Source of the DNA: a virus
IMG/VR virus record: IMGVR_UViG_3300025816_000073
Coordinates: 1-24,275 of that record
Length of the DNA: 24,275 bases
Strand: one strand, 5' to 3'
Below, piece by piece: positions 1-19,620 of the stretch. The notes under the pieces are model-generated. The model was not told the origin of the DNA. It ran no database searches and worked only from the letters and a program-made list of their open reading frames with translations. The position numbers and the translations under genes were made by a program. The first letter of the stretch is position 1. Each line of letters begins with the position of its first letter.

Positions 1-73
1 GTGATAACTTATCTAAAGTAGCGTATGTTTCTTTTGTTAGAGAAACATTTTTATACTTTGTCATATCAGTCAT
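1..73 (-). CDS. N-terminal fragment of a small ribbon-helix-helix-like protein, cut by the window edge
   Basis: Reading leftwards from an ATG at 73, 24 codons are open to the edge: MTDMTKYKNVSLTKETYATL followed by DKLS. The start is supported by a good ribosome binding site (AAAGGAAC, about 5 bases before the ATG) and a TTGACA promoter further upstream. The pattern V-S-L-T-K-E-T-Y-x-x-L-x-x-L-S resembles the beta strand and first helix of Arc/CopG-type ribbon-helix-helix DNA-binding proteins, which act as dimeric repressors or antitoxin subunits. Only the first third of such a protein is visible, so the family call is tentative. It is divergent from the small exported protein gene at 129, and a repressor role at that 55-bp spacer would be plausible but is inference. 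Confidence 0.6.
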   Translation of the reverse strand, partial: MTDMTKYKNVSLTKETYATLDKLS

Positions 74-3207: not shown

Positions 3208-3852
3208 TCATTTTTTTTCCTCAATCTCATAAAAGAAATTGTCGGTGTCTTCAGTTTTCCATTTACCTGAGTCTTCTACATTCCATTCATTAGTTTGTAC
3301 TTTCCAGTCAGGAGTATCATCTCTAACTGTAAATGAAGGTATGTCCCAGATTAATCTATTGTTTGGCTGAGCCGCATAATTGCCGTCATCTAACGCCAAT
3401 ATATGAGCGCACTTATGTTCGTGCGGTACTTCCGAATGATCGGTGTCTACTATATTACTCTCTGGATGTGCAAAGTCAACGGTAAATAAATAACTGCCGT
3501 GATGCCATTTTTTATCTTTACCTATATATTTTCCGTGTTGTCCACCTAAAATATCATAAGTAGTAACAGCAGGATAATAACTAAAAGAATTCCAAAGCTC
3601 CAGTTCATCAAGTCTCTTGGGTGGAACAGACTTGGGGTCATGACCACGTTGAATAAAAGCCGTAATTGGGAGACGATAAAAGATTGCACCATTTTCCATA
3701 ATAGCGTGCCATAAGATAGCGCGACCTGTAATACAGCTAATACCAAAGATAATACAGTCTTCAACTTCTCCGTGATGTTTTTTAAGATCATATAAATACT
3801 CCCTTTTTATTTGTGCGTATTGTACAGGAATATTTGCATTTAAGTAAGCCAT
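3208..3852 (-). CDS. Soluble phage protein of unknown function, 214 aa
   Basis: A globular protein with no signal peptide, opening MAYLNANIPVQYAQIKREYL. It contains several His-rich places (KKHHGEVED, GGQHGKYIG, KWHHGSYLF, VPHEHKCAH) and many aromatic residues, ending in a polar Asp/Glu/Lys/Trp-rich tail with repeated W-x(3-5)-E/D patterns. I remember similarly starting proteins in many T7-like and marine phage genomes annotated as hypothetical, so it is probably a widely kept accessory protein. Its spacing to the neighbours (9 and 12 bases) places it in the same leftward operon. No function can be assigned. Confidence 0.7.
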   Translation of the reverse strand: MAYLNANIPVQYAQIKREYLYDLKKHHGEVEDCIIFGISCITGRAILWHAIMENGAIFYRLPITAFIQRGHDPKSVPPKRLDELELWNSFSYYPAVTTYDILGGQHGKYIGKDKKWHHGSYLFTVDFAHPESNIVDTDHSEVPHEHKCAHILALDDGNYAAQPNNRLIWDIPSFTVRDDTPDWKVQTNEWNVEDSGKWKTEDTDNFFYEIEEKK

Positions 3853-3864
3853 AATTTTTCAACA

Positions 3865-4491
3865 TTATACACTATGCAAAAATGAAATCAAAATTAATCT
3901 CTCTTTATGACACACTTCTGCAGCGTGAAAATGTTTAGAATCAAAACAAACTAATCTATTAAATTTACCCTCAAAATGCATTGTTTTATCAAAATAATTA
4001 TTATGTTTTAATTTATTTTGAGAAATTACTTTTTTCTGCTTTTCAGTATATTTTTGTTTTTCACCAAAATATTTGTGTTTTTCTAGTTCTCCTATGTTCC
4101 AATCAGGAGTTAAAAATTCATTTTTTAAATTAAAAATAGACGTGCCTGAAGTATTATCTATTGTTAAATAAATTATGGCAGTTATTAGTGATTCGTCATA
4201 GTGAACCCAGCCATCGTTTTCATCAGGATTACTTTTTTGAAAATAAGTTTCAGCTGAAAATTTTGAAGTTTTTCTTGGATTAAAAATACTAATTATCTTT
4301 TTGTTTATGTAATCATGTAAATCTTTGTTTATTGTGTGTAATTCATCCGTTCTTGATCCAGAAATATAACGTGTTTGTTTAAAATCTAAAGTATTTGCAT
4401 AATTAATTATTTTATTTGGATTATCAAAAAAATTATCTTTACATAAACTTGGAAGAAAATCATATGGTCGCTCTGCTGGTTCGTATGCCAT
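3865..4491 (-). CDS. 2OG-Fe(II) oxygenase-like protein (DUF6445 type), 208 aa
   Basis: The core motif set is intact: H97-Y-D99 in GWVHYDESLITAIIYLT, H189 in NRLVCFDSKHFHAAE, and R198 in ERLILISFL. These match the HxD...H...R signature of 2OG-Fe(II) oxygenases and the general layout of DUF6445. The ATG at 4491 overlaps the stop codon of the DNA polymerase gene as TAATG, so translation is likely coupled to the polymerase; a TTG 18 bases upstream is a weaker alternative start. The domain between the two ligand segments is long and Lys-rich. Substrate unknown; the polymerase link makes nucleotides or DNA a fair guess, but only by context. Confidence 0.75.
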   Translation of the reverse strand: MAYEPAERPYDFLPSLCKDNFFDNPNKIINYANTLDFKQTRYISGSRTDELHTINKDLHDYINKKIISIFNPRKTSKFSAETYFQKSNPDENDGWVHYDESLITAIIYLTIDNTSGTSIFNLKNEFLTPDWNIGELEKHKYFGEKQKYTEKQKKVISQNKLKHNNYFDKTMHFEGKFNRLVCFDSKHFHAAEVCHKERLILISFLHSV

Positions 4492-6458
4492 TATTTTATT
4501 GTACCCCAATTTGGTCCAGATTCATAATCTACTTTGTTTTTAACTTCAAGAATAATAGTTTTTTCCATTGTCTCTTGAATTAATTTTGCTTCGTGGTCCG
4601 TGATTGAAAAACAAAGTTCATCGTGTATCTGTATATGAGGCACTATACCTTTTTCATATAAATCTACCATGGCCTTTTTTGTCATATCTGCAGCGGACCC
4701 TTGTATCAATCTATTTAAAGCTTTGTAAGTGAAAGCTGGAGTATAATGTTTTTCAAAATGTTCTAACTTTTCATCTACCAATTCTTTGTACTTTTCCATT
4801 TGTTCTAATTTATAAGCATCTATAGCTTGTTTTTTTGTATACAAAGGTACTTCATCAAATCTATTTATTTTAGAGTTCCATTTCTTATCAGTAGTTTCCC
4901 ACTTATTAAATCTACAGAACCTATCTCCTAAAGTAAATAATAGTTTCTCCTCTGATGCAAAGTTTGACAAAGCATAAGATAATTGTTTAACAAAAGGCAC
5001 CTTACCATGATAGGTTTGAAATAGTTTGTTTGCTTCTAAAGAATCTAGGTTTAATTCTTTTTGTAATTTAAGTTTACCCATGCCATAGAATAGACCTAGG
5101 TTAATTGTTTTAGCTTGTGTTCTTGATATATTTGCCATGTCCGCAACAATTTGATGGAAGTCAGCATCTTCTTTATCAAACTCTTCTTGTAGTCCGCTAG
5201 TACCAGGTAGACCTAATTTAATTGCGTAGTGCACTACGATACGTGGTTCTTGTTGCGAGTAGTCAAAACTACCCCACTTATAACCTTCGTCTGGTATAAA
5301 TAATTCTCTCATCTTTTTACCAATATAACCTTTAGATGGAATTTGTTGCAGGTTTGGATTACTCATAGAGAATCTACCAGTTACAGTCCCACCACCATCT
5401 CCTCTTATTTGGTTAATATCAGCATGTATTCTACCATTATGAACAAAACCTAATAGACCATCTACAAATGTGCTTTTAGCTTTATCACATTCTCTGGCTT
5501 TAGCCACCATTCTTAAAAATCTATTTTCATGCGTACGTAGATAATCTTTAGGTAGTTGTGGTAGTTTTGATTTAGGAGTTGTTTTGTAGTTTTTAATTTC
5601 TTGATGCTCTAATAAATTTTTTATAGATGCAGCAGCCCATATTTGTATATCTAATCCTGTTCTTTTCTTAATGATATTAATTAAGTTGTCTTTTCTTTTT
5701 TCTAACTTTTTACCAAACAACTTAGCTTTTGGGATATCTATTTTAACTCCTTTAAATTTCATGTCAACAAGACAAGGAAATAATTTTGTTTCTAATTCAA
5801 ATATATTTCTACAAGTTTTTTCTTCTATTGTTCCATCATCGTTAGTTTTAGTATATAATACTTCATCCAATTTTTTATTAAATAGTTTCCAGAGACGTAA
5901 TGTTAAGTTTACATCTTGTTTTGCATATTCTTTTACAACCGAAGCAGGAAGCTTGTGCATGTTAGTCATTGGATCTTTAACTGTACCACCAGACCACTCT
6001 AATGTTTTTTCTTGTAAATCATATTTGTATTTTTCATCTTTTAAATAATCTTTTGACAAAGCATCTAATGAATATTTAAATCTATTCTCATCAATGACAG
6101 AAGCTGCAATCATTGTGTCTACAATTCTTCCTTTCATTATTTTACCAGTTACAGCTCTTATCCAACATACATCATACATTGCATTGTGAAAAACTTTCGT
6201 AATCTTTTCATTCTGAAAAATCTTTTCGTTTAAAGATTCCCAGATTTTTAATTTTTTATCTAAGGATAGATCTGTGTCCGCATGACTTATTGGAAAGTAT
6301 GTAGTTTCTTTGTCAGTTGCAACTGCAACACCACAAATAAAACCATCACCTCTTATCGCACCTAATCCTTTTGATTTTAAATTAGGATCATATGTTTCTA
6401 TATCTATCGCTACAGTATCTATACCTTGCAAATCTAGATCTTCTGGTGTCTTACACAT
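4491..6458 (-). CDS. polA: Family A DNA polymerase with 3'-5' exonuclease domain, 655 aa
   Basis: Replicative phage DNA polymerase. The N-terminal proofreading domain shows Exo I D19-I-E21-T, Exo II D96 (HNAMYD) and Exo III Y178xxxD182. The polymerase domain shows motif A D399-YSQQEPR, motif B R446-TQAKTINLGLFYG and motif C H612-D-E. There is no 5'-3' exonuclease domain, as expected for phage enzymes of this length. The residue equivalent to E. coli Pol I Phe762 (T7 Tyr526) is Leu454, the Leu762 type common in marine viromes. Motif A has Q-E-P where E. coli has I-E-L. The gene overlaps the DUF3310 gene by 8 bases upstream and an oxygenase gene by TAATG downstream. Confidence 0.95.
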   Translation of the reverse strand: MCKTPEDLDLQGIDTVAIDIETYDPNLKSKGLGAIRGDGFICGVAVATDKETTYFPISHADTDLSLDKKLKIWESLNEKIFQNEKITKVFHNAMYDVCWIRAVTGKIMKGRIVDTMIAASVIDENRFKYSLDALSKDYLKDEKYKYDLQEKTLEWSGGTVKDPMTNMHKLPASVVKEYAKQDVNLTLRLWKLFNKKLDEVLYTKTNDDGTIEEKTCRNIFELETKLFPCLVDMKFKGVKIDIPKAKLFGKKLEKRKDNLINIIKKRTGLDIQIWAAASIKNLLEHQEIKNYKTTPKSKLPQLPKDYLRTHENRFLRMVAKARECDKAKSTFVDGLLGFVHNGRIHADINQIRGDGGGTVTGRFSMSNPNLQQIPSKGYIGKKMRELFIPDEGYKWGSFDYSQQEPRIVVHYAIKLGLPGTSGLQEEFDKEDADFHQIVADMANISRTQAKTINLGLFYGMGKLKLQKELNLDSLEANKLFQTYHGKVPFVKQLSYALSNFASEEKLLFTLGDRFCRFNKWETTDKKWNSKINRFDEVPLYTKKQAIDAYKLEQMEKYKELVDEKLEHFEKHYTPAFTYKALNRLIQGSAADMTKKAMVDLYEKGIVPHIQIHDELCFSITDHEAKLIQETMEKTIILEVKNKVDYESGPNWGTIK

Positions 6459-6693
6459 TATAATCTCTTTCCAATATCATTTCTAAATAGTGTATTGCTT
6501 TCTTAATGTCTTCTTCTTTCCCTTTAGCAGAGTGTCTGCATATGTACTTTATAGCATTACCTTCTGCAAAAAGCAATTTGTTTTCATTTATAAACTCTGC
6601 GGGCTGAATCTTCATAGAGCGATAGTGTTTCCCGCCTACCTGCTCTTCTAATGAATTGTATGTTGTTCCTTTAAATATATCTTTGTGTGTCAT
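6451..6693 (-). CDS. DUF3310 protein, 80 aa
   Basis: A small DUF3310 protein: QVGGKHYRSMKIQPAEFI, then EGNAIKYICRHSAKGKEEDI and KKAIHYLEMIL match the family core of a G-G-x-H-Y motif, a central Y-I-x-R-H-x-x-K-G and a terminal helix. Family members are called SaV-like nucleotide kinase-related proteins, but their biochemical role is not established. The ATG at 6693 overlaps the helicase stop as ATGA, which decides the start over an in-frame ATG at 6741 lying inside the helicase gene. It sits between helicase and polymerase, consistent with a role in nucleotide supply or replication. Confidence 0.85.
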   Translation of the reverse strand: MTHKDIFKGTTYNSLEEQVGGKHYRSMKIQPAEFINENKLLFAEGNAIKYICRHSAKGKEEDIKKAIHYLEMILERDYNV

Positions 6694-8258
6694 TGTCTTA
6701 CTCCTAATGTGTATTCTTTTTGTGATGCGATTGTCCAACAATCTATTCTCCCTCTACTGTATGCTACATACTTTAAACGAAGCTGTGTAAAATAATCTTC
6801 TCTTCTTGTTGCAGTCAAATCAACAACAACGTTGTCAAACGTCATACCTTTTACTTTGTGTATGTTTCCGTACTGAACTCTACTTACTTCTTCAACATTA
6901 ACGCCATCTCTAATTAACTGTCTTATAAATCTAACTTGTTCTTCATTGACTCTACTTTTTACTCGAGTGTCTAAAAAGTCAGTAAATTCAAGGCTTTTTT
7001 CATATAAAAAACCTTTATCGATCATCTCTTGAATTGTATATTCTTTGTTAATCCAATCTTTAAAAGTTTCTTTTCCTTTACCTTTTACAATAGTTTGCAT
7101 CCCCATATATTCCCAAAAATATTTTATTTGTTGCAAAGGCATAGCTTTACCTTTTACAAATGCAGGCCAATTTTTATGACAATCAAATTGTTTTTTAGAC
7201 ACAAACGCTGAATTACCTACCGCACAAAAATTAATTCCATTTCTTAATAGAAAAGCTCTGGCCGATTTACGTGAAGAATTATATCTGAACGTAAATAAAA
7301 AACTTTCTTTTGTATTTTTTATCTTGTCTAATAGAATTCTCATATGTGAACAATCTGATATGTAATTAGCTAAATCATAATGATGACCAATTATATTTTC
7401 TGCAGGTTTCCAAATTCTATTGTACTCATATTTTTGCCATATAGGAGCTATAATTTTTTTACATAATTCATTTATTGTTTTACCACATCTAAGTCCATCT
7501 TCTAATTGTTCTGCATCTTTAGATATTGTATGGAAATAATCTGCATCAGCTCCGGCCCACTCAAATATAGTTTGATCAGGATCCCCTACCATAATAAATT
7601 CTTTTGCATTAGTTGCAATTTTTTCTAAAGCTTTTCTTTGCGGCACGTTACTGTCTTGTGCTTCATCAACTATTAAAACATCTATGTCAGGTACTTTAAC
7701 ATTTGGATTATTAAATTCTTGTATCATATCTTCGAAAGCTCTTACCTGTTCATTCTTTTTATATTCTGTAGCCCATTCAATCATTTGATTTATCATTCTT
7801 AAATTTTTGTAAGTTTTTAAATTACCGTTCTGTTTTAAAATAAGATAATATTGTTGTGTGGTAAGACCTCTACCAATTGCACCTTTAACAAATTTATAAA
7901 AGTCATGGTCTTCTGAAACATCTTCTTTTACATCATGGTATCTAAACTCTTTATGCATCCTGCATAAGTTTGCATGATCTTCATCTTTAAATAAAGATTT
8001 TTTAATTAGTTTACTCTGACAATACTTATGAATAGTACAAATTCTATTTTCAAAAAAATTCTCTTCTAATTTCATATTTTTAATTTCAGGAAGATCTTCT
8101 ACAGCTTCTCTAATTTCATCAGCAGCTACATTGGTGTGTGATAATAAAATCATTTTTTCTGGTGAATAAGTTTTTAACAGTTCTTTGTATTTACTTTTTA
8201 AGTATACATGTGTTTTACCTGTTCCTGGAGGACCAACTATAAATTTAAGATTGTTCAT
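6690..8258 (-). CDS. UvrD/Rep-like superfamily 1 DNA helicase, 522 aa
   Basis: SF1A helicase motifs are readable in order: Walker A GPPGTGKT (9-16), motif Ia LLSHTNVAADEI (about 38-49), Walker B VDEAQ (197-201), motif III GDPDQTIFEWAGA (225-237), a late motif NIHKVKGMTFDNVV and motif VI YVAYSRGR near the C-terminus. These fit ATP-dependent 3'-5' or Dda-like helicases that unwind DNA at the phage fork. The usual NYRS-type motif IV is changed to LEDGLRCGKTI. The gene overlaps the primase gene by 14 bases and the DUF3310 gene by 4, placing it in a single replication operon. Confidence 0.9.
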   Translation of the reverse strand: MNNLKFIVGPPGTGKTHVYLKSKYKELLKTYSPEKMILLSHTNVAADEIREAVEDLPEIKNMKLEENFFENRICTIHKYCQSKLIKKSLFKDEDHANLCRMHKEFRYHDVKEDVSEDHDFYKFVKGAIGRGLTTQQYYLILKQNGNLKTYKNLRMINQMIEWATEYKKNEQVRAFEDMIQEFNNPNVKVPDIDVLIVDEAQDSNVPQRKALEKIATNAKEFIMVGDPDQTIFEWAGADADYFHTISKDAEQLEDGLRCGKTINELCKKIIAPIWQKYEYNRIWKPAENIIGHHYDLANYISDCSHMRILLDKIKNTKESFLFTFRYNSSRKSARAFLLRNGINFCAVGNSAFVSKKQFDCHKNWPAFVKGKAMPLQQIKYFWEYMGMQTIVKGKGKETFKDWINKEYTIQEMIDKGFLYEKSLEFTDFLDTRVKSRVNEEQVRFIRQLIRDGVNVEEVSRVQYGNIHKVKGMTFDNVVVDLTATRREDYFTQLRLKYVAYSRGRIDCWTIASQKEYTLGVRQ

Positions 8259-9741
8259 GTACTATTTGTTTTACCTCCGTAACTTCTTCAAACTCTCCTT
8301 CATGAATTAAATTAGTTTCATCCATATTGTAGTTTTCTATTTTATACGTAGAACAAGAATGTTCTTTGTACTTACCCCTATACTTCTTTGCTTTTAAAAC
8401 GTTCCTGCATTTTAAAACTAAGTCTACTCTAGCCATATTGACTCTTTTCTTCTGCAGATAGTCATCAAACTTATCTAACTTAAATTCTAAACTTTCATTT
8501 TTAATATTATAAAAAGGCATACCAAATAAATGTAATTCTTTTTTATCTGTGAATGCTTTGTGTTCTGCAATAAAACTATCAAACCAACCAATAAATCTTA
8601 AATCTTCACTAGATTCTGGATCGTAGTCTTGTGACTTTCTTCTAGTTTCAAATTTAGCTATCATCATTTTTTCAAAATCCATCTCTTTCATGTATGGTAA
8701 AAAGACAGCAGCCTGTCTCATTACTTCATTGTAAAATATTTTTTTATTCATTAACTGTGGTCCTTCTACAGTTATATCTTTTTCAATTTTTTTACCTTCT
8801 TCTGTCGTATATATTTTTACAAAATATCTATCACTTCCATATTCAGTTATTTCACCAATGTGTTCTTGTATTTCTTCTGTATTATTTTCAATACCTATCC
8901 AACTAAATATTTTAATTATATCTTTTTGATCTACATTTAAAACTTCTGCTAATTTAGGAATCCCATATTGTTTTTCTGCTTTTTTACCTGTAGTTCCTTT
9001 TTGATTACGTTTGTCCGCTTCAGTATCATTTGCTTCAATAGCAATATTATAAACGAAACTATCTATTTCTTCTGTTGTCCAATCTGTATTTTTAATTAAA
9101 GTTCCTGCTATAGCTGTACAATAAATATCTCTAGATCCAGCAGAAGGATATATAATTGTAAGTGCAGTTGACAAGGCAATTTTACCTACATCAACTCTTA
9201 TGTTTCCATTGTATTCGTGAATGTTAGTATAATTTGCCCATTCAACTACCTCTCCATTGTCATCGTATGGAGACTCTGGAACTATTGTATATCTTTCTTT
9301 ACCACTTCTTAATTCACAAAGAGTTGCACCATGTGGAAACTTCTCAAAGTTTTTTTCAAAGCTTTTTGGTAATATGTATTGTGTAAATTTACAGGAACCT
9401 GTCCAAAGGTAATGACTGTTTGGATTATTTCTTCTACCATAAACTGCTCCGCAGTCTTTTAAATAATGTGTTATAAATCTTCTGACAACAAAGTTGTCTA
9501 TATCTAAATCAATGTGTTGATCTAATCTTAATGCTATCTGTGCTTTTGAGTGATTGTTTTTCCATTCTTCTTTCGTTAAAGTAAAATCTTCTTTCTTCCA
9601 ACTGACCCTGGCTTTCTTTTGGTCAGTAGGTATTATTACATGACCAAGATTAAGCCAATCCTCATAATTAACAGGTTTATTATTTATCTTATCGTTCATA
9701 AATTTAAAAGCGGGCGTCTCCACTCTCGCTTTAACGCCCAC
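8245..9741 (-). CDS. Archaeo-eukaryotic-type primase (prim-pol), 498 aa
   Basis: The first 170 residues show a bifunctional primase/polymerase domain: the acidic metal motif D78-L-D80-I-D82 after ALRLDQHI, the NSH motif with H110, and ELRSGKERYTIVPES near 143-157, where PPS-like family members end the active-site region. A helical PriCT-like segment follows (YPSAGSRDIYCTAIAGTLIK, about 199-218), then a C-terminal half I cannot place. It likely makes primers for the family A polymerase. The start is uncertain: GTG at 9741 (with TAGG nearby) or ATG at 9699. A GC-rich hairpin lies between the two, so the true start matters for regulation. Confidence 0.8.
   Translation of the reverse strand: MGVKARVETPAFKFMNDKINNKPVNYEDWLNLGHVIIPTDQKKARVSWKKEDFTLTKEEWKNNHSKAQIALRLDQHIDLDIDNFVVRRFITHYLKDCGAVYGRRNNPNSHYLWTGSCKFTQYILPKSFEKNFEKFPHGATLCELRSGKERYTIVPESPYDDNGEVVEWANYTNIHEYNGNIRVDVGKIALSTALTIIYPSAGSRDIYCTAIAGTLIKNTDWTTEEIDSFVYNIAIEANDTEADKRNQKGTTGKKAEKQYGIPKLAEVLNVDQKDIIKIFSWIGIENNTEEIQEHIGEITEYGSDRYFVKIYTTEEGKKIEKDITVEGPQLMNKKIFYNEVMRQAAVFLPYMKEMDFEKMMIAKFETRRKSQDYDPESSEDLRFIGWFDSFIAEHKAFTDKKELHLFGMPFYNIKNESLEFKLDKFDDYLQKKRVNMARVDLVLKCRNVLKAKKYRGKYKEHSCSTYKIENYNMDETNLIHEGEFEEVTEVKQIVHEQS
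9712..9739 (-). promoter_or_regulatory. GC-rich hairpin at the start of the primase gene
   Basis: GGGCGT at 9712-9717 pairs with ACGCCC at 9734-9739, a six-bp GC-rich stem with a 16-base loop in otherwise AT-rich DNA. In the direction of transcription it is followed by GCTTTTAAATTT and an ATG at 9699. It could be an attenuator that limits primase expression or a fold that hides or exposes the start codon. It could also simply be codons 1-10 if GTG at 9741 is the start. Confidence 0.35.
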
Positions 9742-9752
9742 TACCTAGGATT

Positions 9753-10505
9753 CTATAAATTCAAAGATTTTTTTGTTTGTTCTTGAACTTCAGGTTTAGC
9801 TTGTATCTCACCTTTACCTACAGAATCTGCAAAAGATTTAGCCATGTCATAGATAGCTTTATCAGTGACAGGTCCTACTTTTGTTACATCCCAACCAAAC
9901 CATGTTCCTTTGTCGTTAGACATTTGAACAGTAGATAGTTGATAAATGTGGCTGTAAGTTGGCGGAGTAAACAAACCATTTTTACCCTGCATTTTTATAC
10001 CCAACATCATTGAGTTCCATTTTCTACTAACTTTTAATTGAGTAGACTTCATAGAAATCAAAGCTGTTTCTGGGTTATCACCAACGATTAATACAAAGTG
10101 ACTAGCTGTATTATCAAGATAGTTTCCATTTGGTAATCTATCTTTATAGTCTTTACCTCTAGTTGTTTGACTTACAATGTCACTATCTGCATCGTGAATT
10201 GCAACAGGTGCACCTGTACTGGTACCTCTGTCTTGCCATTCAATGTACTGTCGTTTGTAATGACATGGTACAACTTGTATAGTGTCATACAATGCATTAG
10301 TTACGGTATTTATTATTTTACCTGGCTCTGCACCCTCGACGTACTTACCATCTCTTTTGTTTACCTCTGGAGATAGTTGACCCAAAATTTTTAAGAATGG
10401 TAACGCAAGATCTTCTTGCGATATATTCTGGGCTCCTTGTTGTGCATCTGCTTCCATATCAAATGTAGCTAATGCACCATTCTTTTTTTCTGTTACTTGG
10501 TTCAT
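9753..10505 (-). CDS. Putative single-stranded DNA-binding or recombination-associated protein, 250 aa
   Basis: The sequence has a disordered Gln/Ala-rich N-terminus (1-30), then LALPFLKILGQLSPEV and a beta-rich core with many aromatic residues (HYKRQYIEWQDRG, ASHFVLIVGD, GTWFGWDVTKVG) and a polar, Lys/Gln-rich tail. This layout and the place next to the primase fit phage proteins that I recall being annotated as ssDNA-binding proteins, but I see no diagnostic motif and the tail lacks the acidic end typical of T7 gp2.5. AAGGAAC lies 8 bases before the ATG. It is preceded in the operon by a coiled-coil protein with which it may work. Confidence 0.55.
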   Translation of the reverse strand: MNQVTEKKNGALATFDMEADAQQGAQNISQEDLALPFLKILGQLSPEVNKRDGKYVEGAEPGKIINTVTNALYDTIQVVPCHYKRQYIEWQDRGTSTGAPVAIHDADSDIVSQTTRGKDYKDRLPNGNYLDNTASHFVLIVGDNPETALISMKSTQLKVSRKWNSMMLGIKMQGKNGLFTPPTYSHIYQLSTVQMSNDKGTWFGWDVTKVGPVTDKAIYDMAKSFADSVGKGEIQAKPEVQEQTKKSLNL

Positions 10506-10507
10506 GT

Positions 10508-11059
10508 TTATTTGTTCCTTTTTATTGTTGTCTTATTCTCCGAGAAAACCCCGAAGATTTCCGTTGGCATTTCTTTTCCTGCCTCAATACGCTCACGGAC
10601 TAACGCTTTCAGAGTCATGGATTCAACCTTCATCTTTTGTGTTGGTTGAAATCCTTGACCCTTTGCAAGTTCGGCATAATCAGCCGCCTTGTTATCTTCG
10701 AAAGACCCAAAGGATACGGATATCTCATTTTTGATTATATCCCCTAGTCCATTTTCACGAAGCCAGTTAAACGCCGCTTCTTTATTTGCTTCTGTTATAG
10801 TAGCACGATACGACGTTGAAACTTTAAGATGTGATCCATCTTGAAGTTTTAATTCTGCTAAACCCATCTCGAACATCATGGTTGGTATAACCTCCCCTGA
10901 TATACGTTGGTATTCTTTTTTTAAATCTTTGATGTTGTTTTCACTTGTCTCTATTCTTTTGTGCAAGTTTTCTAACATCTCTACTTGATCTGCAAGAGAC
11001 TGAATATTTTCAGTTTTACTCATTGCATCTTGTTGGTCTTTTTCAAAATCAATTGTCAT
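10508..11059 (-). CDS. Coiled-coil protein with a conserved C-terminal domain, possibly Gam-like, 183 aa
   Basis: Residues about 15-55 form a coiled coil (ENIQSLADQVEMLENLHKRI and on), followed by a beta-rich part (AELKLQDGSHLKVSTSYRAT), a helix AFNWLRENGLGDII and a final helix TLKALVRERIEAG. The architecture recalls phage Gam-type DNA-end or nuclease-inhibitor proteins, but I cannot show homology. A strong ribosome binding site AAAGGAG sits 7 bases before the ATG at 11059, which lies 11 bases inside the upstream gene. Its GC content is above that of its neighbours (10561-10620 has 31 G/C in 60). Neighbouring replication genes suggest work on DNA. Confidence 0.6.
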   Translation of the reverse strand: MTIDFEKDQQDAMSKTENIQSLADQVEMLENLHKRIETSENNIKDLKKEYQRISGEVIPTMMFEMGLAELKLQDGSHLKVSTSYRATITEANKEAAFNWLRENGLGDIIKNEISVSFGSFEDNKAADYAELAKGQGFQPTQKMKVESMTLKALVRERIEAGKEMPTEIFGVFSENKTTIKRNK

Positions 11060-11438
11060 CTATTTCTCCTTTCTCGTATAAATTAATGTCAATCGGGTAA
11101 TATTTTCTTTCTTGTTTATCCCACTTTAATAAATTGTATTTGCCGTTTGTAATATCAGATACAATTGAGCATGCAACACCTATAATTGCAGGATCGCCTG
11201 TAAGTAATAAATAATCTCCTTCCTTAAAATCTTTTAAACCTTTTCTTAATTTAAAAATTAAAGGACCTGGAGAGAAAATCATTTGAGAAAACTCTGGCAA
11301 TAAAAATTTAAATTTACCATAACTAGATGCACCTATAATATTTATTTTAGGATTACCTGCTTGTGTACCTGCTATTTCTTGTATAACATACACAGTTGGT
11401 TTACTTCCAATAACATTTTTTTCATTTATTACTTTCAT
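11049..11438 (-). CDS. Unknown first gene of the replication operon, 129 aa
   Basis: Starts MKVINEKNVIGSKPTVYVIQ at the ATG at 11438; an in-frame TTG at 11447 would place the start inside the -10 box of its own promoter and is rejected. The protein appears all-beta (YVIQEIAGT, INIIGASSYG, LIFKLRKGLKDFKEGDYLLL), and the segment LKDFKEGDYLLLTGDP is reminiscent of small barrel folds. No catalytic motif is seen. As the first gene after the overlapping divergent promoter pair it is likely early and could be regulatory, but this rests on position only. Confidence 0.65.
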   Translation of the reverse strand: MKVINEKNVIGSKPTVYVIQEIAGTQAGNPKINIIGASSYGKFKFLLPEFSQMIFSPGPLIFKLRKGLKDFKEGDYLLLTGDPAIIGVACSIVSDITNGKYNLLKWDKQERKYYPIDINLYEKGEIDDN

Positions 11439-11440
11439 GC

Positions 11441-11469
11441 TTGACAATATAACTATGTAATACTATATG
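11441..11469 (+). promoter_or_regulatory. Rightward promoter of the SNF2-helicase/oxygenase island
   Basis: TTGACA at 11441-11446, 17 bases, then TATATG at 11464-11469. The start of transcription is expected near 11476, giving a leader of under 10 bases with AGAAAG before the ATG at 11485. Confidence 0.5.
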
Positions 11470-11473
11470 TCAA
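11446..11473 (-). promoter_or_regulatory. Leftward promoter of the replication operon
   Basis: On the minus strand TTGACA (11473-11468) is followed after 16 bases by TATATT (11451-11446), five of six matches to the consensus -10. Only 7 bases separate the -10 box from the ATG at 11438, so the mRNA is predicted to be leaderless or nearly so. Confidence 0.55.
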
Positions 11474-11484
11474 GTTAGAAAGTT

Positions 11485-12915
11485 ATGAATTATAAATTTA
11501 AAACAAAACCATACGCGCATCAATTAACTGCGTTAGAAAAATCCTGGAATAAGGAAACCTATGCATATTTTATGGAAATGGGTACAGGTAAAACAAAAGT
11601 ATTAATTGATAACATGGCAATGTTATATGATAAAGGTAAAATTGATGGTGCATTAATTGTTGCTCCTAAAGGTGTAATTAAAACTTGGTATGAACAAGAA
11701 CTACCTACACATTTACCAACACACATTGAAAATGTGTCAGTATTGTGGCAACCGAATATAACAAAAACACAACAAGAAAAACTAGAATCATTGTTTGAAA
11801 TAGAAACATCTTTACACATTTTGGTTATGAATGTTGAAGCATTTAGTACAGAAAAAGGTATTAAATTTGCTTCAAAATTTTTAAACTCACATAAAGTATT
11901 GATGGCTATTGATGAGTCTACAACAATTAAAACACCTACAGCTAAGAGAACTAAAAATATTATTGGTCTTGGTAAGTCTGCAAAATACAGACGTATTATG
12001 ACTGGATCTCCGATTACAAAAAATCCTTTAGATTTATATACTCAGTGCGAGTTCCTTGATCCGTATTTATTAAATCATGCTTCATACTATTCTTTTCGTA
12101 ATAGATATGCAGAGATGAAAACTATGCACGTACGTGGTCGATCAATACAAGTTGTGCACGCGTTTCAAAATCTTGCAGAACTATCAGACAAAGTAAAAGG
12201 TTTTTCTTACAGAGTATTAAAAGAAGACTGTTTAGATTTACCACCAAAAATTTTTACTAAACGTTATGTCACATTAACACCAGATCAAAAAAAGATTTAT
12301 CAACAAATGAAAAAAGAAGCTATGGCTATATTAAATGGTAAAGTAACTTCTACTATAACTGTATTGACTCAATTAATGCGACTACATCAAATAACTTGTG
12401 GTCATTTTACTGCTGATGATGGGTCCACGCAGTCTGTTGAAAGTAATAGATTAAATGAATTAATGTCTGTTCTTGAAGAAACAGAAGGCAAAGCTATTAT
12501 TTGGGCTAACTATCAATTAAGTGTAGGTGAGATTATACAAAGAATAATTAAAGAATATGGTGAAGATTCTTATGTTCATTATTATGGTTTAACTTCACAA
12601 GAAGACAGACAAGACTTTATTCGTAAGTTTCAAAACGATCCTAAGTGTAGATTTTTAATTGGAACACCACAAACAGGTGGATATGGTATTACACTTACAC
12701 AGGCCAACACTGTAATTTATTATTCTAATAGTTATGATTTAGAAAAAAGACTACAATCAGAAGACCGAGCCCACAGGATAGGACAAACAAAGTCAGTAAC
12801 ATATGTAGATATTATAACAGAAGATACAGTTGATGAAAAAATTGTAAAAGCATTACGTAATAAAATTAATATAGCATCTGAAGTATTAGGTGAAGAATTA
12901 AAGGAGTGGATATAA
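11485..12915 (+). CDS. SNF2-like superfamily 2 helicase/ATPase, 476 aa
   Basis: The N-terminal lobe has Walker A MGTGKT (32-37), a motif II of DEST type (143-146) and MTGSPITKNPLDLY (about 172-185), which is the SNF2 motif III region. The C-terminal lobe has GTPQTGGYGITLTQANTVIY and SEDRAHRIGQTKSVTYVDII, the hallmark SNF2 motifs V and VI. These ATPases translocate on double-stranded DNA to remodel or branch-migrate it; phage members are usually placed in replication, transcription control or recombination. It is the first gene of the only long plus-strand island and its TAA abuts the ATG of the next oxygenase gene. The DEST in place of DEAH/DEGH is seen in compact phage members as I recall. 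Confidence 0.9.
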   Translation: MNYKFKTKPYAHQLTALEKSWNKETYAYFMEMGTGKTKVLIDNMAMLYDKGKIDGALIVAPKGVIKTWYEQELPTHLPTHIENVSVLWQPNITKTQQEKLESLFEIETSLHILVMNVEAFSTEKGIKFASKFLNSHKVLMAIDESTTIKTPTAKRTKNIIGLGKSAKYRRIMTGSPITKNPLDLYTQCEFLDPYLLNHASYYSFRNRYAEMKTMHVRGRSIQVVHAFQNLAELSDKVKGFSYRVLKEDCLDLPPKIFTKRYVTLTPDQKKIYQQMKKEAMAILNGKVTSTITVLTQLMRLHQITCGHFTADDGSTQSVESNRLNELMSVLEETEGKAIIWANYQLSVGEIIQRIIKEYGEDSYVHYYGLTSQEDRQDFIRKFQNDPKCRFLIGTPQTGGYGITLTQANTVIYYSNSYDLEKRLQSEDRAHRIGQTKSVTYVDIITEDTVDEKIVKALRNKINIASEVLGEELKEWI

Positions 12916-13572
12916 ATGAATTACCCAACTTTTTGTGTTAATAATTTTTTAGAAGATCCAGATCAAATAGTAGAGCACAGTAAACAGCACAAATATATTA
13001 GAGCTGAAGATGGTAAATGGCCAGGAGAAAGAGCCGATTTATCAAATACGACTGTAAATAATTTTTTATTAAATAAAATTTTTAGGGTAATACATCCTAA
13101 TATGACTAATAATTTTAGAGCGTCAGCACATTCTATGTTTCAAAGAATAGATAATGAACACGGAAAGTCTGGATGGATTCATAGAGATACCAGTGATGAG
13201 TTAACAGCTATAATATATTTATCTAAACATAAAGGTTGTGGAACTTCTATATATCAACCAAAGACTTTTGAAAGTTGTTCTACTAATGAAGACAATATTA
13301 TTAAATCTAATTTTTATAAAAGTTTGAATTATAGTAAAAAATATCAAAAACAATTAGAGGCACATAATAATAAATTTAATGAAACAATATATTTTGAGTC
13401 TGTTTATAATAGGTTAATTATATTTAACTCTAACGACTTTCATGGTGTTAAAAATTTTAAAATTGGTTCTGAACCAAGATTAACTTTTATCACATTTATA
13501 AAATGGTTATCAGATGATAATTTAAAAAGCGGCTATTTAGAAAGTAGAAAAATAATATCAACCCCTAATTAA
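12916..13572 (+). CDS. 2OG-Fe(II) oxygenase-like protein (DUF6445 type), 218 aa
   Basis: Clear motif set H89-R-D91 in GWIHRDTSDELTAIIYLS, H176 in NRLIIFNSNDFHGVKNF and R188 in PRLTFITFI, the metal and 2OG-binding residues of Fe(II)/2OG oxygenases. The two ligand segments and their spacing match the oxygenase at 3865-4491, so these two are probably paralogues within one phage. GGAG at 12903-12906 in the end of the helicase gene precedes the ATG, and the stop of the helicase touches it directly. The substrate is not readable; the helicase partner suggests nucleic acid, which remains inference. Confidence 0.75.
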   Translation: MNYPTFCVNNFLEDPDQIVEHSKQHKYIRAEDGKWPGERADLSNTTVNNFLLNKIFRVIHPNMTNNFRASAHSMFQRIDNEHGKSGWIHRDTSDELTAIIYLSKHKGCGTSIYQPKTFESCSTNEDNIIKSNFYKSLNYSKKYQKQLEAHNNKFNETIYFESVYNRLIIFNSNDFHGVKNFKIGSEPRLTFITFIKWLSDDNLKSGYLESRKIISTPN

Positions 13573-13600
13573 ACTAAAAGATTGGATTTAATATATAACT

Positions 13601-14122
13601 ATGAGTAATCATTTATCTATTTATAGTGTAAATAATTTTAAAAATCATAAAAATAATTTAATTGCTTTAATTAAACAAACACCATCTGCTAAACATGGTC
13701 ATGTTTCTTACACGGATTGGAATACAGAAGAACGTTTGCAAGAAAATTACGAATTTACTAAAAGACCTTACGTAGATTATTTTTTAAAAAATATTTTTGC
13801 ATATTATGCAAAACATTTTTGCCGTTTTTTTAAAATAAAAAAAATCGAATTAAAAGATATTTGGTTTCAAATTTATAAAAAAGGAGATTATCATTTACTT
13901 CATACTCATGAAAATGCTCATTTTGCTAATGTTTTTTACATTAATCTTCCTTATAAAAAATTAAAAACTAAAATTTATTCATTAAAAGAAAAAGAATTAA
14001 AATTTAAATGCAAAGAAGGAGATATTGTGTCATTTCCTGCTTTTTATAAACATGGGTCATTCATAAATAATTATGAAGAAGAAAAAATTATAATTTCTTT
14101 TAACACAAATATTAGAACTTAA
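13601..14122 (+). CDS. 2OG-Fe(II) oxygenase-like protein (2OG-FeII_Oxy_5 type), 173 aa
   Basis: LLHTHENAHFANVFYINLP has H101 and H103, EGDIVSFPAFYKHGSF has H151, and the terminal strand reads KIIISFN. This parallels the 802-1329 protein, where the terminal strand begins with Arg162; here the equivalent is Lys162. The overall order of a G-D-x-x-x-F-P strand followed by a metal His and S-F-N is that of 2OG-FeII_Oxy_5 proteins. No clear ribosome binding site precedes the ATG at 13601. The coding sequence is extremely AT-rich (10 G/C in 60 at 13801-13860). Its stop overlaps the convergent endolysin stop, leaving no space for a terminator. Confidence 0.65.
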   Translation: MSNHLSIYSVNNFKNHKNNLIALIKQTPSAKHGHVSYTDWNTEERLQENYEFTKRPYVDYFLKNIFAYYAKHFCRFFKIKKIELKDIWFQIYKKGDYHLLHTHENAHFANVFYINLPYKKLKTKIYSLKEKELKFKCKEGDIVSFPAFYKHGSFINNYEEEKIIISFNTNIRT

Positions 14123-14595
14123 ACTAATTCTTTTGCTGAACCTAATATGGGTTTATATTTTGTTTTACCCTCTGATCTGTATGCATGTAAAAAACTAGCT
14201 CTTGGTTGATCCGGGATCCATGAGCAATGTATCCATCCTGAGTTAGGTTCTCCAGGCGTATAGTATTCGAGGATCAATTGATCTGGTGAAAGGTTTGATT
14301 TTATCCAATCAAAAAGTTCAGCGTTGTCTGTGCCTACCACTTCGAAATCTGCGGCCTCTGCACGTGCATGCTGTGATCTAGCAGAACTACCAATAGCCTC
14401 GCATAATTCTACGCTACGAAACCCGCTCGTTATCTTGACCCTGCCGAAATGATCACGTACCGGCTGCAAAATATTTTCACACAATGCTTTTAATTTTTCT
14501 ATTTGTTCTGCGTTAGGGTTGTTGTTGATACCCTTACGGATCGCTGTATCTGATTTGATTAATTCTGATAAAGAAAAATTTCGTGATAATTGCAT
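14119..14595 (-). CDS. Endolysin, M15-family peptidase (Peptidase_M15_3 type), 158 aa
   Basis: Zinc peptidase motifs are present: SQHARAEAADFE with H76 and D83 (H-x6-D) and GWIHCSW with H123, the metal ligands of M15A D-Ala-D-Ala carboxypeptidase-like endolysins. ITSGFRS at about 55-61 is the usual strand before the first ligand. It would cut peptidoglycan peptide cross-links at lysis. No signal peptide is seen, so a holin must release it; a holin-like gene ends 4 bases upstream, and the ATG lacks a ribosome binding site, suggesting translational coupling. Base composition is higher in GC (28 of 60 at 14401-14460) than the oxygenase gene it meets. Confidence 0.88.
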   Translation of the reverse strand: MQLSRNFSLSELIKSDTAIRKGINNNPNAEQIEKLKALCENILQPVRDHFGRVKITSGFRSVELCEAIGSSARSQHARAEAADFEVVGTDNAELFDWIKSNLSPDQLILEYYTPGEPNSGWIHCSWIPDQPRASFLHAYRSEGKTKYKPILGSAKELV

Positions 14596-14599
14596 ATAT

Positions 14600-14779
14600 T
14601 TATTTTGCGATGTCTGTTAGTAAAACTAATAGCACGGCTCCCATACCTCCGACTATCCAATACTCTAATCTTTTAATACGTTCTTGCATTTCTTTTATTT
14701 GTTCGAACGTTTGCTTTTGCATTATTCTGCAAAGCTTTTCATGTGATTCAATTTTTTGTAATGCTGATTTTTTTGCCAT
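14600..14779 (-). CDS. Holin-like protein, 59 aa
   Basis: Reading leftwards from the ATG at 14779: MAKKSALQKIESHEKLCRIM, a coiled-coil-like amphipathic helix of about 38 residues, then a transmembrane helix (WIVGGMGAVLLVLLTDIAK, residues 41-59). One membrane segment with a cytoplasmic helical N-terminus fits XhlA-like or other class III-style small holins. The ATG overlaps the stop of the 1311-aa gene as TAATG and the stop lies 4 bases before the endolysin start, forming a holin-endolysin cassette. Holin function is inferred from topology and position. Confidence 0.75.
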   Translation of the reverse strand: MAKKSALQKIESHEKLCRIMQKQTFEQIKEMQERIKRLEYWIVGGMGAVLLVLLTDIAK

Positions 14780-17700
14780 TACGTTGTCCTCCTCAACCTT
14801 TGTCTAATAATTTGTTCTGATGGAGATAGTAATGCAGTTTCGGTTGATGTCAAGTTAGTTGTAGGATTAACATTTTGCACATTTGCTTGTGTATTTACTA
14901 CTGGTTGAGGTAAATTTGGTAAAGGTATCAATGGTGCTTCCTCAAATAAATAATCAGCTAAATCAATATCAAATGTTGAGTCTAAAGGTAGTTCTTTAAA
15001 TAAAGATTTCATGGCTCTTAATGTTGGTGCAACTTCTAAATACACATTTGGATCTCCTAAATTATTTGCAATTTCAGAAAATCTTTTTCTAATATCTTGA
15101 GAAGGGAAATATGGTTCAAATACTCCTGTTGCTAAATTGTTAAAAGTTTTTGTACTTATTTGTCTATCACTAAATTCTCTTCTTAATGAACTTGTGTCAA
15201 CACCAAGAATTCCAGCAGCGTTAATATTTTTATTCATTTCTTGTTGAACTTCAAATCTTGCTTTGTTTGAATTATAAAATGCACTAATGACATCGTTTGG
15301 TTTTATTCTACCACCTCTTAATATTCCAAAGTAACCACCAGTAAATTCTCTTCTAGCATTTCTAATACCTTGTTGGTAATCAGCTATCTTAAATCCCATA
15401 GATTGTAATGGGTCTACTTTAATAGGACGTAGTCCCATAAATCCTGCTAGCTCTGGTCCAATGTTTAAAAAATCTCCACGTTTGTCAGGAGTTCCAAATG
15501 CAGCTGTACCTAATCTTAAAAATTGTTTGTAAGAAGGTGCCAATGCATTACCTAAATGTAAAAATCTAATTGCAGCTTTATTACCTGCTGGTGTTTGATC
15601 CGTGTACAATTGTCTACCTTCTTTGGTTCTACCACCTCTAACAATTAAATCTGCTGTTGCTTCTGTCCAAATAGATTCTGATATAAATGGATTCATAATC
15701 TCAGCACTAGCTTCAGATACTCCATCAACAAAACCTGATAATAATGTTTCATCGTTTTGTTGACCTTCAATAATATTATTTACTAAAGTTCTATATGGTC
15801 TAGCTATTACATCGTATGCATTACTGTGACTAAAGTCTATATAACGTAGTTCACCATCATCAGTTTTTATTGGTATAAGTGTAGAGTTTTTAGACCATTC
15901 TGGCACGAATTGACGTAATGCTTGTATCTCTTCTTCTGTTACATCATAAATTGCTTTCGCACCTTCAACTGCTATTGTCGGCACAGCTCCTAATGTAAAT
16001 GCCATACCGGATAATCTTTTAAATCCAGTTGCATACATGTCATTATTATTTTTAACAAGACCTTTGCCTTCTATGTTTACGTAAGGTGTAACTGTGCTTC
16101 CTATTATTTTCTCTCCTGCAGCTGGTATGTGTCTCATTTCTTTTAATCCTTGTTCTGCAATATTAGTTGTAGTTCTAATTATTTCAGATGGAAATGACAT
16201 AAAATTACCAATCGGTAATATCCTTGCAGTCTTAACAGCAGATCCAACGTATGCGTAGTTTGGTACAGTATTCTTTACAATATTAGCTGCTTCTTGTTTT
16301 AATCCTCTTAATGTTTCTTTGTTATTTACATCAACACCTCTTTTAACTGCAGCTTGTTTTAATCTATCTAATTCAACAACATAGTTTGTAATCTTCCATG
16401 TATCATCCTCTGCAACATATTTACCTTGAAAAAAGTTTCCAAGTTTTTTTAATTTACTCAGCATAGGCCTTAGTATTGTATCTGTTGATACAACACCTGG
16501 GTTCCCTGTTGCATCTTTTAAAAGATTAACAAGATCTCCAATTTGTACTTGTGAGTTTACAACTCCAAGCTCTAATAATTCTCTATAAGCTGCTTGCGCT
16601 TCTGCTGAGTTTGGTCCAAGTTTTAAGAGCCCTGATATATCAATACCTTCAGCAAACGCTTTTTTTAACAACCCAGGATTTGTTAGACCTTCAATAAATA
16701 TTCCATTTGCACTAGCAAATGCACCAGCACTAAAGAAGTTACGTAAGTGTGTAGGTATAGATAAAACTGTTTTTGCTAATTGTGATATACCTTTTGGAAA
16801 TAATAATAAATTTCTGTAGAACCAAGTAACTGCTTTTTCTGTACCCTTAGCACCTTCTCTACCTCTAATTAAACCAGTTAAACTTGCACCTACGTCATTT
16901 ATATTTTCAATACCTTCGGCTATTTCTTTTGTAGTATATTTACCAGACAAAGGACTGACTAATGTATTACCACCTGGTAATTTTTGAATAACATCATCTA
17001 ATGAAACTATTTCAATACCTGTAGTTGGTGAGTTAACAGCTTGTTTTGCAAGGTCTTCACTTTCCCAAAAAAATCCTCTTCCACCACTTTCTTGCACTTG
17101 TCTGTTTTGCGCTGCAACATCATCGAAATAAGTTGCAGTTCTTGCAACTGCAGATAAGTTTGTCATTGCATTGAATATAGAATAACGTGGGTCTTGTACT
17201 TCACCAAATAACTCTCTAAGCACTTTACTGCCTCTACCCATTGCTTTTTCAAAACTTTTTGTTTGGGACATTGCTGTACCATTTGTGTATGTTATATCAG
17301 GTAGACCAGCTGGTTTCTTTTTAATTTGTACTTGATTTACAATATCATCAACTAAAAATTTTGCTCTTTCATAATATTCTGTTCCTTCAGGATCAAAAGC
17401 TTTAGTTCTATTTTTATCTGTTCTTGCTAAATATCTTCTAAATAAATTTATAGCATTTGAATATGCTTCATCGGTTGGTTTATATTTTTGAAACAATTTA
17501 AATAAACCTTTTGGTCTTTGAAATATTCTATATGTACCACCTAACCATCCTTCTATTCTTTCTTTCATAATTTTTTGTAGGTCTTTTGCACCAGAAGCTT
17601 TTTTACTTCCTGCATTTTTATTTAATATATTAATTAAATTGGTAAACTCTCCTCTGGCATTATTTAAATTAAATATAATATTTTGTGCAGCTTCTTCGTC

Positions 17701-18714
17701 TATGTCAGCTTTTTTTAAAAACTTAACTAAGTTATCTACTGCTCTTGGGTTTATTTCTTTTGTTAAATCACCTTCAAATAAAACATCATTTAATTTTTTA
17801 TAAAAATCTTTTTGTTGTGTATCAGTTGATGTATCAAAAAATTTACCTGAACGTGGATATACTTTATCTACTTCTCTTGTGATATTTTCTACTATCTCTC
17901 TTGCTCTAAATGTATCTCTTGCTTTTAATCCAGCTTTAGCCATTTCAGATTCAAATACTTCTCTAGGTAAATCTCCTTGAGGTCTAAAAGCTGAACCGAT
18001 ATATTTATTTACCCATCTTTCAAATGCACTGTCACTATATGCAAGTTCTTGACCTCGTTTTGCAAGAGCCTTACCTCCTCTACCAACACCATAAACAAAA
18101 GGTGTTATAAATATAGACTCTGCACCAAACTTTAATCTGTTTAATATTCTTCTGCCTGCTTCTTCTCGACCTTCTCCTTCAACCGTATCTATTGCAGTAG
18201 GTCCTTCAAAAAAATCTCCAAACGTTCCTATTTCTTCTACATCAGCAACAAGTGTTTCTCCTGTTGCACCACCAAATACACCCGCTGCAAATCTTTTTGT
18301 GCCATCAGGTATTTTATCATTTAATGATTTTGCTTTCTTCATACCATCTTGAACAGCTTTAGCTCTTAAATTAGCATATGTTCCAGCTTTTTTTGCTTTT
18401 AATGCTTTGTCTGCTAATTTAGTTGCAAGTTTAAAACCTGCTCCACCTGGTATACCTATCTGTGTAAATGTTTCTACAAGTTTACCAGCGACTCTTTCTT
18501 GTGCCGTGTCTTCAAATATATTAACATCGTCAAAAAATCTTTCTACATCTGCAACTGTGTTAGAGTCTGCTCCAAGGTCCACGAGCTCTGCACCAAGAGA
18601 TACTACACCTTCTACAGTTTTAATTAAACCAGATACTAAACCCGCGCCTACTGATGTATACCATGCTGCTGAGCTGTTTTCTTCTGCTGGTATTAATGGT
18701 GTAAATTTAGCCAT
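14779..18714 (-). CDS. Putative internal virion or DNA-ejection protein, 1311 aa
   Basis: The largest gene in the window. The protein opens with a hydrophobic, Gly/Ala/Val-rich region (about residues 15-45, SSAAWYTSVGAGLVSGLIKT), has more such patches around 85-95 and 195-215, and is otherwise helical with many Lys/Arg/Glu. No lysozyme, transglycosylase or protease motif is seen. Size, composition and place between tail-type genes and the lysis cassette match the large internal core or ejection proteins of podoviruses (the role of T7 gp15/gp16), but I see no sequence-level proof. AGAGGT precedes the ATG. The stop joins the holin gene by TAATG. Confidence 0.6.
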   Translation of the reverse strand: MAKFTPLIPAEENSSAAWYTSVGAGLVSGLIKTVEGVVSLGAELVDLGADSNTVADVERFFDDVNIFEDTAQERVAGKLVETFTQIGIPGGAGFKLATKLADKALKAKKAGTYANLRAKAVQDGMKKAKSLNDKIPDGTKRFAAGVFGGATGETLVADVEEIGTFGDFFEGPTAIDTVEGEGREEAGRRILNRLKFGAESIFITPFVYGVGRGGKALAKRGQELAYSDSAFERWVNKYIGSAFRPQGDLPREVFESEMAKAGLKARDTFRAREIVENITREVDKVYPRSGKFFDTSTDTQQKDFYKKLNDVLFEGDLTKEINPRAVDNLVKFLKKADIDEEAAQNIIFNLNNARGEFTNLINILNKNAGSKKASGAKDLQKIMKERIEGWLGGTYRIFQRPKGLFKLFQKYKPTDEAYSNAINLFRRYLARTDKNRTKAFDPEGTEYYERAKFLVDDIVNQVQIKKKPAGLPDITYTNGTAMSQTKSFEKAMGRGSKVLRELFGEVQDPRYSIFNAMTNLSAVARTATYFDDVAAQNRQVQESGGRGFFWESEDLAKQAVNSPTTGIEIVSLDDVIQKLPGGNTLVSPLSGKYTTKEIAEGIENINDVGASLTGLIRGREGAKGTEKAVTWFYRNLLLFPKGISQLAKTVLSIPTHLRNFFSAGAFASANGIFIEGLTNPGLLKKAFAEGIDISGLLKLGPNSAEAQAAYRELLELGVVNSQVQIGDLVNLLKDATGNPGVVSTDTILRPMLSKLKKLGNFFQGKYVAEDDTWKITNYVVELDRLKQAAVKRGVDVNNKETLRGLKQEAANIVKNTVPNYAYVGSAVKTARILPIGNFMSFPSEIIRTTTNIAEQGLKEMRHIPAAGEKIIGSTVTPYVNIEGKGLVKNNNDMYATGFKRLSGMAFTLGAVPTIAVEGAKAIYDVTEEEIQALRQFVPEWSKNSTLIPIKTDDGELRYIDFSHSNAYDVIARPYRTLVNNIIEGQQNDETLLSGFVDGVSEASAEIMNPFISESIWTEATADLIVRGGRTKEGRQLYTDQTPAGNKAAIRFLHLGNALAPSYKQFLRLGTAAFGTPDKRGDFLNIGPELAGFMGLRPIKVDPLQSMGFKIADYQQGIRNARREFTGGYFGILRGGRIKPNDVISAFYNSNKARFEVQQEMNKNINAAGILGVDTSSLRREFSDRQISTKTFNNLATGVFEPYFPSQDIRKRFSEIANNLGDPNVYLEVAPTLRAMKSLFKELPLDSTFDIDLADYLFEEAPLIPLPNLPQPVVNTQANVQNVNPTTNLTSTETALLSPSEQIIRQRLRRTT

Positions 18715-18721
18715 TTAACCT

Positions 18722-19618: not shown

Positions 19619-19620
19619 AA

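Follow-up and report, generated by a model that had tools for sequence, protein, structure and literature searches.

The 24,275-base stretch of viral DNA analysed here (IMG/VR record IMGVR_UViG_3300025816_000073, taken in full and called the window below) is a fragment of an HTVC027P-like pelagiphage genome, amounting to less than half of one genome. It contains two divergent genes with start codons 46 bp apart. To the right lies the gene of a SNF2-type DNA helicase, 63.8% identical to its counterpart in phage 023Pt_psg01 (psg01) and 61.9% to that of Pelagibacter phage HTVC027P; to the left lies a gene related to gp32 of Pam3, whose best matches are also found in 023Pt_psg01 and HTVC027P (about 48%). 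The left block comprises Pam3 gp32-, gp33- and gp34-like genes, a protein that matched no family, a UvrD-type helicase, a DUF3310 protein and DNA polymerase A, while on the right the helicase precedes two oxygenase-like genes (Table 1). The original prediction had described replication genes on one side and a helicase and oxygenase island on the other, a description that stands, with a reservation about the match of the DUF6445 protein. In the window as in its close relatives, two oppositely oriented promoters occupy the same 33-37 bp between these genes. Probably they are mutually exclusive promoters of the sigma-70 type, interleaved, used by the polymerase of the host and firing apart from one another.

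Table 1. The divergent junction and the surrounding genes, in window coordinates
Feature	Position	Strand	Remark
Left gene, Pam3 gp32-like (PF23992)	11049-11438	-	ATG at 11438; first of replication block
Predicted leftward transcription start	~11439	-	Predicted position; adjoins ATG at 11438
Left arm of inverted repeat, CTTGACA	11440-11446		Holds rightward -35
Rightward -35, TTGACA	11441-11446	+	Alphaproteobacterial register: CTTGAC 11440-11445
Leftward -10, TATATT	11446-11451	-	Read 11451-11446; spacer 16
Rightward -10, TATATG	11464-11469	+	Spacer 17; alphaproteobacterial register: CTATAT 11463-11468
Right arm of inverted repeat, TGTCAAG	11468-11474		Holds leftward -35
Leftward -35, TTGACA	11468-11473	-	Read 11473-11468
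Predicted rightward transcription start	~11476	+	Predicted from usual spacing
Shine-Dalgarno-like AGAAAG	11477-11482	+	Before helicase ATG
SNF2-type DNA helicase	11485-12915	+	First gene of rightward unit
DUF6445 protein	12916-13572	+	Rightward unit; oxygenase match below curated cut-off
2OG-Fe(II) oxygenase family protein	13601-14122	+	Last gene of rightward unit
M15 peptidase	14119-14595	-	Convergent; 4-bp overlap (14119-14122) with end of rightward unit

The -35 boxes of the two promoters are carried by the perfect 7-bp arms of an inverted repeat, separated by 21 bp; arms CTTGACA/TGTCAAG with 18-24 bp between them occur a single time in the record. Both the two TTGACA boxes and the perfect arms had been noted in the original prediction and are borne out by the sequence. 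It also placed each -10 box under the -35 box of its partner; this is correct, if slight in the window, where the rightward -10 and the leftward -35 have 2 bp in common (11468-11469) and the leftward -10 and the rightward -35 just one (11446). At the outer span of 33 displayed by the window the -10 and -35 boxes overlap by 1-2 bp, and at a span of 37 there is a 2-bp gap on the rightward side. On the left, the open reading frame list gives a TTG start at 11447, which is mechanical, and the ATG at 11438 was used. When the full configuration is defined as arms 31-41 bp apart with TATAT on both strands at a spacing of 16-18, it is found once in the window and never in 2000 sequences simulated from it with a first-order Markov model, 323 of which contain the arms when these are counted by themselves. 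A generic sigma-70 scan of positions 2000-21900 has no power (76 sites found versus 89 expected); the leftward promoter is among its two best-scoring sites (11/12), and the rightward promoter cannot pass it because the scan requires T as the final base of the -10 box.

Relatives were collected as the best 80 matches for each of three queries (the window-like, HTVC027P and psg01 helicases), with 59 for the left gene of HTVC027P. Of the 305 records, nine lacked a usable helicase match and seven a start codon; once identical 75-bp regions had been removed and at least 90 nt required, there were 163 distinct upstream regions. HTVC023P and Pam3 (L089), which fell in the psg01 group by best match, were set aside as outgroups, bringing that group from 50 to 48 and the total counted to 161. 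Face-to-face -35 boxes (TTGAC[AT]/[AT]GTCAA on opposing strands) are present in all 61 window-like sites, 56 of which have both -10 boxes, and in all 48 psg01-like sites, 34 with both -10 boxes. Counted singly, 56 sites of the window clade retain the rightward promoter and all 61 the leftward one. The best promoter score on each strand was also compared with 60 shuffles of the same 70-bp region (p <= 0.05), and both strands beat 95% of the shuffles in 57 of the 61 window-like sites. The prediction of two overlapping divergent promoters is thus well supported by the conservation of the -35/-10 pairs in relatives. Even where it stands 159-558 bp away from the helicase the pair is kept, as seen in six loci (L030, L062, L071, L174, L215 and L228), L174 lacking the leftward -10. 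In two of these, L062 and L071, the promoter pair is separated from the helicase by a related insert of some 150 bp, which lies about 20-165 bases before the start of the helicase and has the stretch GAATGACGATCTTCCTAGGCGTAT in common; a search of Rfam gave no match in the window, in L062, L071 and L030, or in both halves of psg01. At another locus, L058, the first gene on the left is one of 199 aa that does not clearly resemble gp32; the gp32-like gene comes later, and the -35 pair persists.

The spacing of the elements also bears on what is being conserved. It was followed in 59 distinct regions, from which L074 and L076 (whose helicase begins outside the contig), ten contig ends of insufficient length, and L030, L062 and L071 (restored for the later census) were left out. 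The rightward -35 is TTGACA in 58 of the 59 and its spacer 17 in 57; the leftward spacer is 16 in 48 and 17 in 10; the outer span is 37 in 36 regions, 33 in 20 and 34 in two, the value for HTVC027P being meaningless. The -35/-10 spacings therefore stay at 16-18 while the distance from arm to arm varies between 33/34 and 37, a pattern that agrees with a pair of promoters better than with a single dyad operator of fixed geometry. In a FastTree phylogeny of 159 helicases the 33/34 and 37 classes are intermixed; parsimony counts 11 interchanges between them, and for the 33/34 class branches with strong support impose a minimum of 5 changes. Recombination may account for some of this. A perfect 7-bp dyad centred between the genes, used with just three spans (33, 34 and 37), does invite another interpretation, namely that it is the operator of a dimeric regulator flipping between the replication genes and the helicase unit. 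We regard this as improbable. A rigid dimer sitting on both arms is disfavoured, because a change of 4 bp corresponds to about 0.4 helical turn, and the span shifts by 3-4 bp even among close relatives with each -35/-10 spacing kept. Outside the boxes the site is as variable as neutral sites, and the HTVC027P-like clade loses the dyad and retains the rightward promoter. Pfam reveals no regulator family among the 28 open reading frames of the window, which is less than half of a genome and in which 14 of the 28 have no Pfam match. The dyad operator was consequently rejected on its variable arm spacing combined with fixed -35/-10 spacing, and the switch tipped by a dimeric regulator that had been proposed for this site finds no support.

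Sequence identity was also compared outside the arms. Mean pairwise identities, in the order rightward -10, leftward -10, rest of the site and four-fold sites of the helicase, are 0.88, 0.99, 0.56 and 0.54 in the span-37 window-like class, 0.75, 0.59, 0.56 and 0.56 in the span-37 psg01-like class, and 0.92, 0.53 (spacers 16 and 17 being mixed), 0.47 and 0.53 in the span-33 window-like class. These values bear on a second explanation, in which the rightward (helicase) promoter alone is functional and the leftward elements are relics or side effects of the symmetry. Of all 161 distinct sites, 151 do retain the rightward promoter and 96 the leftward one in its face-to-face position, and the predicted leftward -35 of HTVC027P-like phages is a weak TTTACT. 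Against this, the leftward -35 and -10 boxes are kept in 61/61 sites of the window clade, the leftward -10 reaches the identity of 0.99 just given for the span-37 window-like class, and in 53 of 58 loci a distance of 7-11 nt separates it from the left AUG, so that we give this explanation little credence. Least probable of all is a replication origin or DNA-structure element in place of promoters, suggested by an AT-rich palindrome located between helicase and replication genes, for the 16-18 bp spacing of -35 and -10 is constant on both strands, the centre is not conserved and the arm spacing changes by 3-4 bp.

Returning to the two promoters, their sequence has an alphaproteobacterial character. 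The host of the window phage is likely SAR11, an alphaproteobacterium, because contigs of seven Pelagibacterales single-cell genomes carry relatives of the helicase at 80-83% identity. HTVC027P infects SAR11 and is described as lytic, without an encoded RNA polymerase and using the host enzyme throughout (PMC12753301). For Sinorhizobium meliloti, the consensus promoter is given as CTTGAC-N17-CTATAT (PMC2873474); the rightward promoter of the window is an exact instance of it and the leftward one, CTTGAC-N16-TTATAT, a near fit. Among the alphaproteobacteria analysed in another study, more than 60% of promoters are without T at -7, and it has been proposed that the protein CarD compensates for this (PMC8407463). 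At the present junction, considering -10 boxes that begin with TATA, window-like promoters have T at -7 in 10 of 56 cases on the rightward side and in 24 of 61 on the leftward side (the leftward one of the window itself among them), and psg01-like promoters in 1 of 48 and 1 of 34, respectively. T is thus mostly missing, an alphaproteobacterial trait. In the window, position -7 is common to the -35 of the partner; the frequent lack of T explains why the generic scan could not show the rightward promoter, and would let a -10 box share bases with that -35. As for CarD, a match to its domain above cut-off was found once in each of the six SAR11 single-cell genomes searched, where one open frame of 293 aa looks CarD-like by eye; the family also matches 10 of 14 control genomes, Escherichia coli included, so that the match alone is not specific.

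We propose that the host RNA polymerase serves both promoters, each -10 box lying against or on the -35 box of the partner. The rightward RNA would begin about 9 nt before the helicase AUG and carry the helicase with the two oxygenase-like genes. The rightward -10 ends 14-29 nt before that AUG in the 59-region set, which leaves a short leader, and that of the window holds AGAAAG. The leftward RNA would begin at, or a few nucleotides from, the AUG of the Pam3 gp32-like gene and lead the replication block. Because the left AUG comes only 7 nt beyond the leftward -10 in the window, this messenger is predicted to be leaderless, its 5' end falling at the AUG or within about 4 nt of it. The distance is 7-11 nt in the 53 window-like loci mentioned above, and 2 (three loci), 28 and 30 nt in the other five. 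Of 43 loci in the psg01-like class, 13 lack a TATA at the leftward spacing; among the remaining 30, the distance is 18-20 nt in 21. Leaderless messengers are known from S. meliloti, where 171 mRNAs starting at AUG have been mapped (PMC3616915). The footprints of two polymerases would cover the same DNA, making binding mutually exclusive, and for this reason the relative strength of the promoters would set how the polymerase is shared out between the two units. HTVC027P early genes are all stated to be of unknown function (PMC12753301), which suggests that the annotated helicase is not an early gene.

It has been reported that opposing polymerases cannot bind together at the sites of bidirectional promoters (PMC12825309); this and the geometry of the window indicate that the polymerase probably fires in one direction at a time. 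In the same work competition appeared once one direction was strongly activated, and competition between the two promoters of the window is plausible because both have consensus -35 boxes. To be sure, a number of observations weigh against the model. Five E. coli bidirectional promoters were without competition at basal activity, which was too low (PMC12825309). The sample of relatives is biased to close ones, which are not independent, and the identities of the -35 boxes and arms are circular since the arms defined the classes, the -10 boxes having been no class criterion. No TATA-type rightward -10 is present in 5 of the 61 window-like sites, and in psg01-like phages the leftward -10 is absent from 14 of 48 sites, with an identity (0.59) hardly above the background of 0.56. 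Both strands beat 95% of the shuffles in just 34 of 50 psg01-like and 16 of 52 HTVC027P-like regions. The face-to-face arrangement is missing from 51 of the 52 HTVC027P-like sites (a single one has it), 46 of which have only a rightward TTGAC[AT] promoter and five neither. The outcome that the original prediction held to be fatal, relatives keeping one promoter only, is therefore seen in part, through the loss of the face-to-face arrangement in the HTVC027P-like clade (51/52) and of the leftward -10 among psg01-like sites (14/48); in the window clade the counts are the 56 and 61 of 61 given above. Finally, four further helicase relatives (59-66% identity) come from assemblies labelled Prochlorococcus, Thermoplasmatales, Flavobacterium and Porticoccaceae, and these labels make the host of the wider group less sure.

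Divergent phage promoters in a control region are familiar from PR and PRM of phage lambda, where the cI mRNA made from PRM is leaderless. That system differs in its reliance on repressor operators, none of which were found here, and HTVC027P is reported to be lytic (PMC12753301). The lambda switch has itself been contrasted with the Bacillus subtilis plasmid pLS20 (PMC4207663), which offers the closest of the published layouts compared here. There the polymerase can bind just one of two overlapping promoters, Pr and Pc, whose boxes are proposed to swap places exactly (PMC4207663), and the window likewise has a -10 at the -35 of the partner. The pLS20 promoter Pr is weak and depends on the regulator RcoLS20 (PMC4207663), whereas in the window both -35 boxes are consensus and mirror-symmetric, one mRNA is predicted to be leaderless and there is no known regulator. 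In the bidirectional promoters of E. coli a shared -10 gives opposite starts from one short sequence, with exclusive binding (PMC12825309, PMC10268837). The window does not belong to that type in the sense of Warman and Grainger: its -10 boxes are separate and its predicted starts lie about 37 bp apart, outside the 7-25 bp of the definition. What it has in common with alphaproteobacterial sigma-70 promoters is an exact fit on the plus strand and, over the whole set, -10 boxes mostly without -7T, its own particularity being the -7 shared with the -35 of the partner. Among the open-access literature matches listed, we found no paper on this site in pelagiphages, and the paper on the HTVC027P transcriptome (PMC12753301) never uses the word "promoter" in its main text.

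The E. coli arrangement is predicted only in HTVC027P-like relatives. There, 41 of 159 helicase rows combine a rightward TTGAC[AT] promoter with a predicted leftward TTTACT -35 and overlapping -10 boxes. In 37 of the 41, spacings of +17/-16 and a span of 51 put both -10 boxes on one hexamer with the self-complementary consensus TATATA, the form described for the E. coli bidirectional promoters (PMC12825309, PMC10268837). The clade would thus keep the rightward promoter together with a weaker leftward one sharing its -10; this stays a prediction because TTTACT is weak, matching TTGACA at 4 of 6 bases. In HTVC023P-like phages no TTGAC[AT] was found on either strand of the last 80 nt in 19/19 rows at >= 70% identity, and among more distant rows it is present in 7 of 11, on the + strand only; by eye, TTGATC/TTTGCA can be read there as a possible pair, which is not claimed. 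A tentative extension of the two-promoter model, which we put forward with considerable doubt, is that mutual exclusion is itself the selected property, the overlap having been rebuilt in several ways at one junction, where helicase and replication genes would be kept in competition for the same polymerase. The rebuilt forms would appear to be the spans 33/34 and 37, the shared TATATA -10 and perhaps adjacent -35 boxes in HTVC023P-like phages, a -10 being able to share its last two bases with the -35 of its partner because alphaproteobacterial sigma-70 tolerates any base at -7. SAR11 are the most abundant marine bacteria and pelagiphages infect them. The site gives exact predicted starts, and the junction offers a natural series of geometries in which competition between polymerases may be set against a regulator as what fixes the ratio of two units.

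The divergent layout of the genes and the promoter pair may have separate histories. In Pam3 (L089) the helicase and the gp32-34 homologues all share one orientation, and in DSL-LC04 (L088) the helicase is divergent from a gp32-like gene, yet the junction has no TTGACA pair. The pair is also one among several putative promoter sites: TTGACW-15..17-TATAT occurs 3 times in the window and 5 to 7 times in each of four relatives of 57-65 kb, two of these being contributed by the pair, and there are 3 such sites in HTVC027P, 4 in psg01 and 1 in HTVC023P. A pattern scan limited to spans 37-43 matched 15 of 32 records, the listed places all having span 37; zeros in span-33 genomes do not count as losses. 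A second strong promoter, TTGACAATCCTATAAAATCACCTATAT, lies at 103-129 on the - strand of the window, with versions in the four larger relatives; the start codon of an opposing small gene overlaps its TTGACA, with TATAGG 7 nt before. Within the window, two genes of phrog_81 (2OG-Fe(II) oxygenase) and two of phrog_1644/DUF6445 (802-1329, 3865-4509, 12916-13572 and 13601-14122) form pairs that are each split across the promoter site. Another conserved promoter, TTGACAATRGGATWGTCAAGGAYTATAT, has its own TTGAC...GTCAA inverted repeat and is possibly a further overlapping pair; it is found at 1123 in L309, 1140 (-) in L310, 1129 (-) in L311, 1102 in L312 and 18202 (-) in L082, and its copy in HTVC027P is flanked by gp34 and gp35, which are divergent. 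One more inverted-repeat site, TTGACAATAGGATTGTCAA, may be a second candidate of this overlapping kind.
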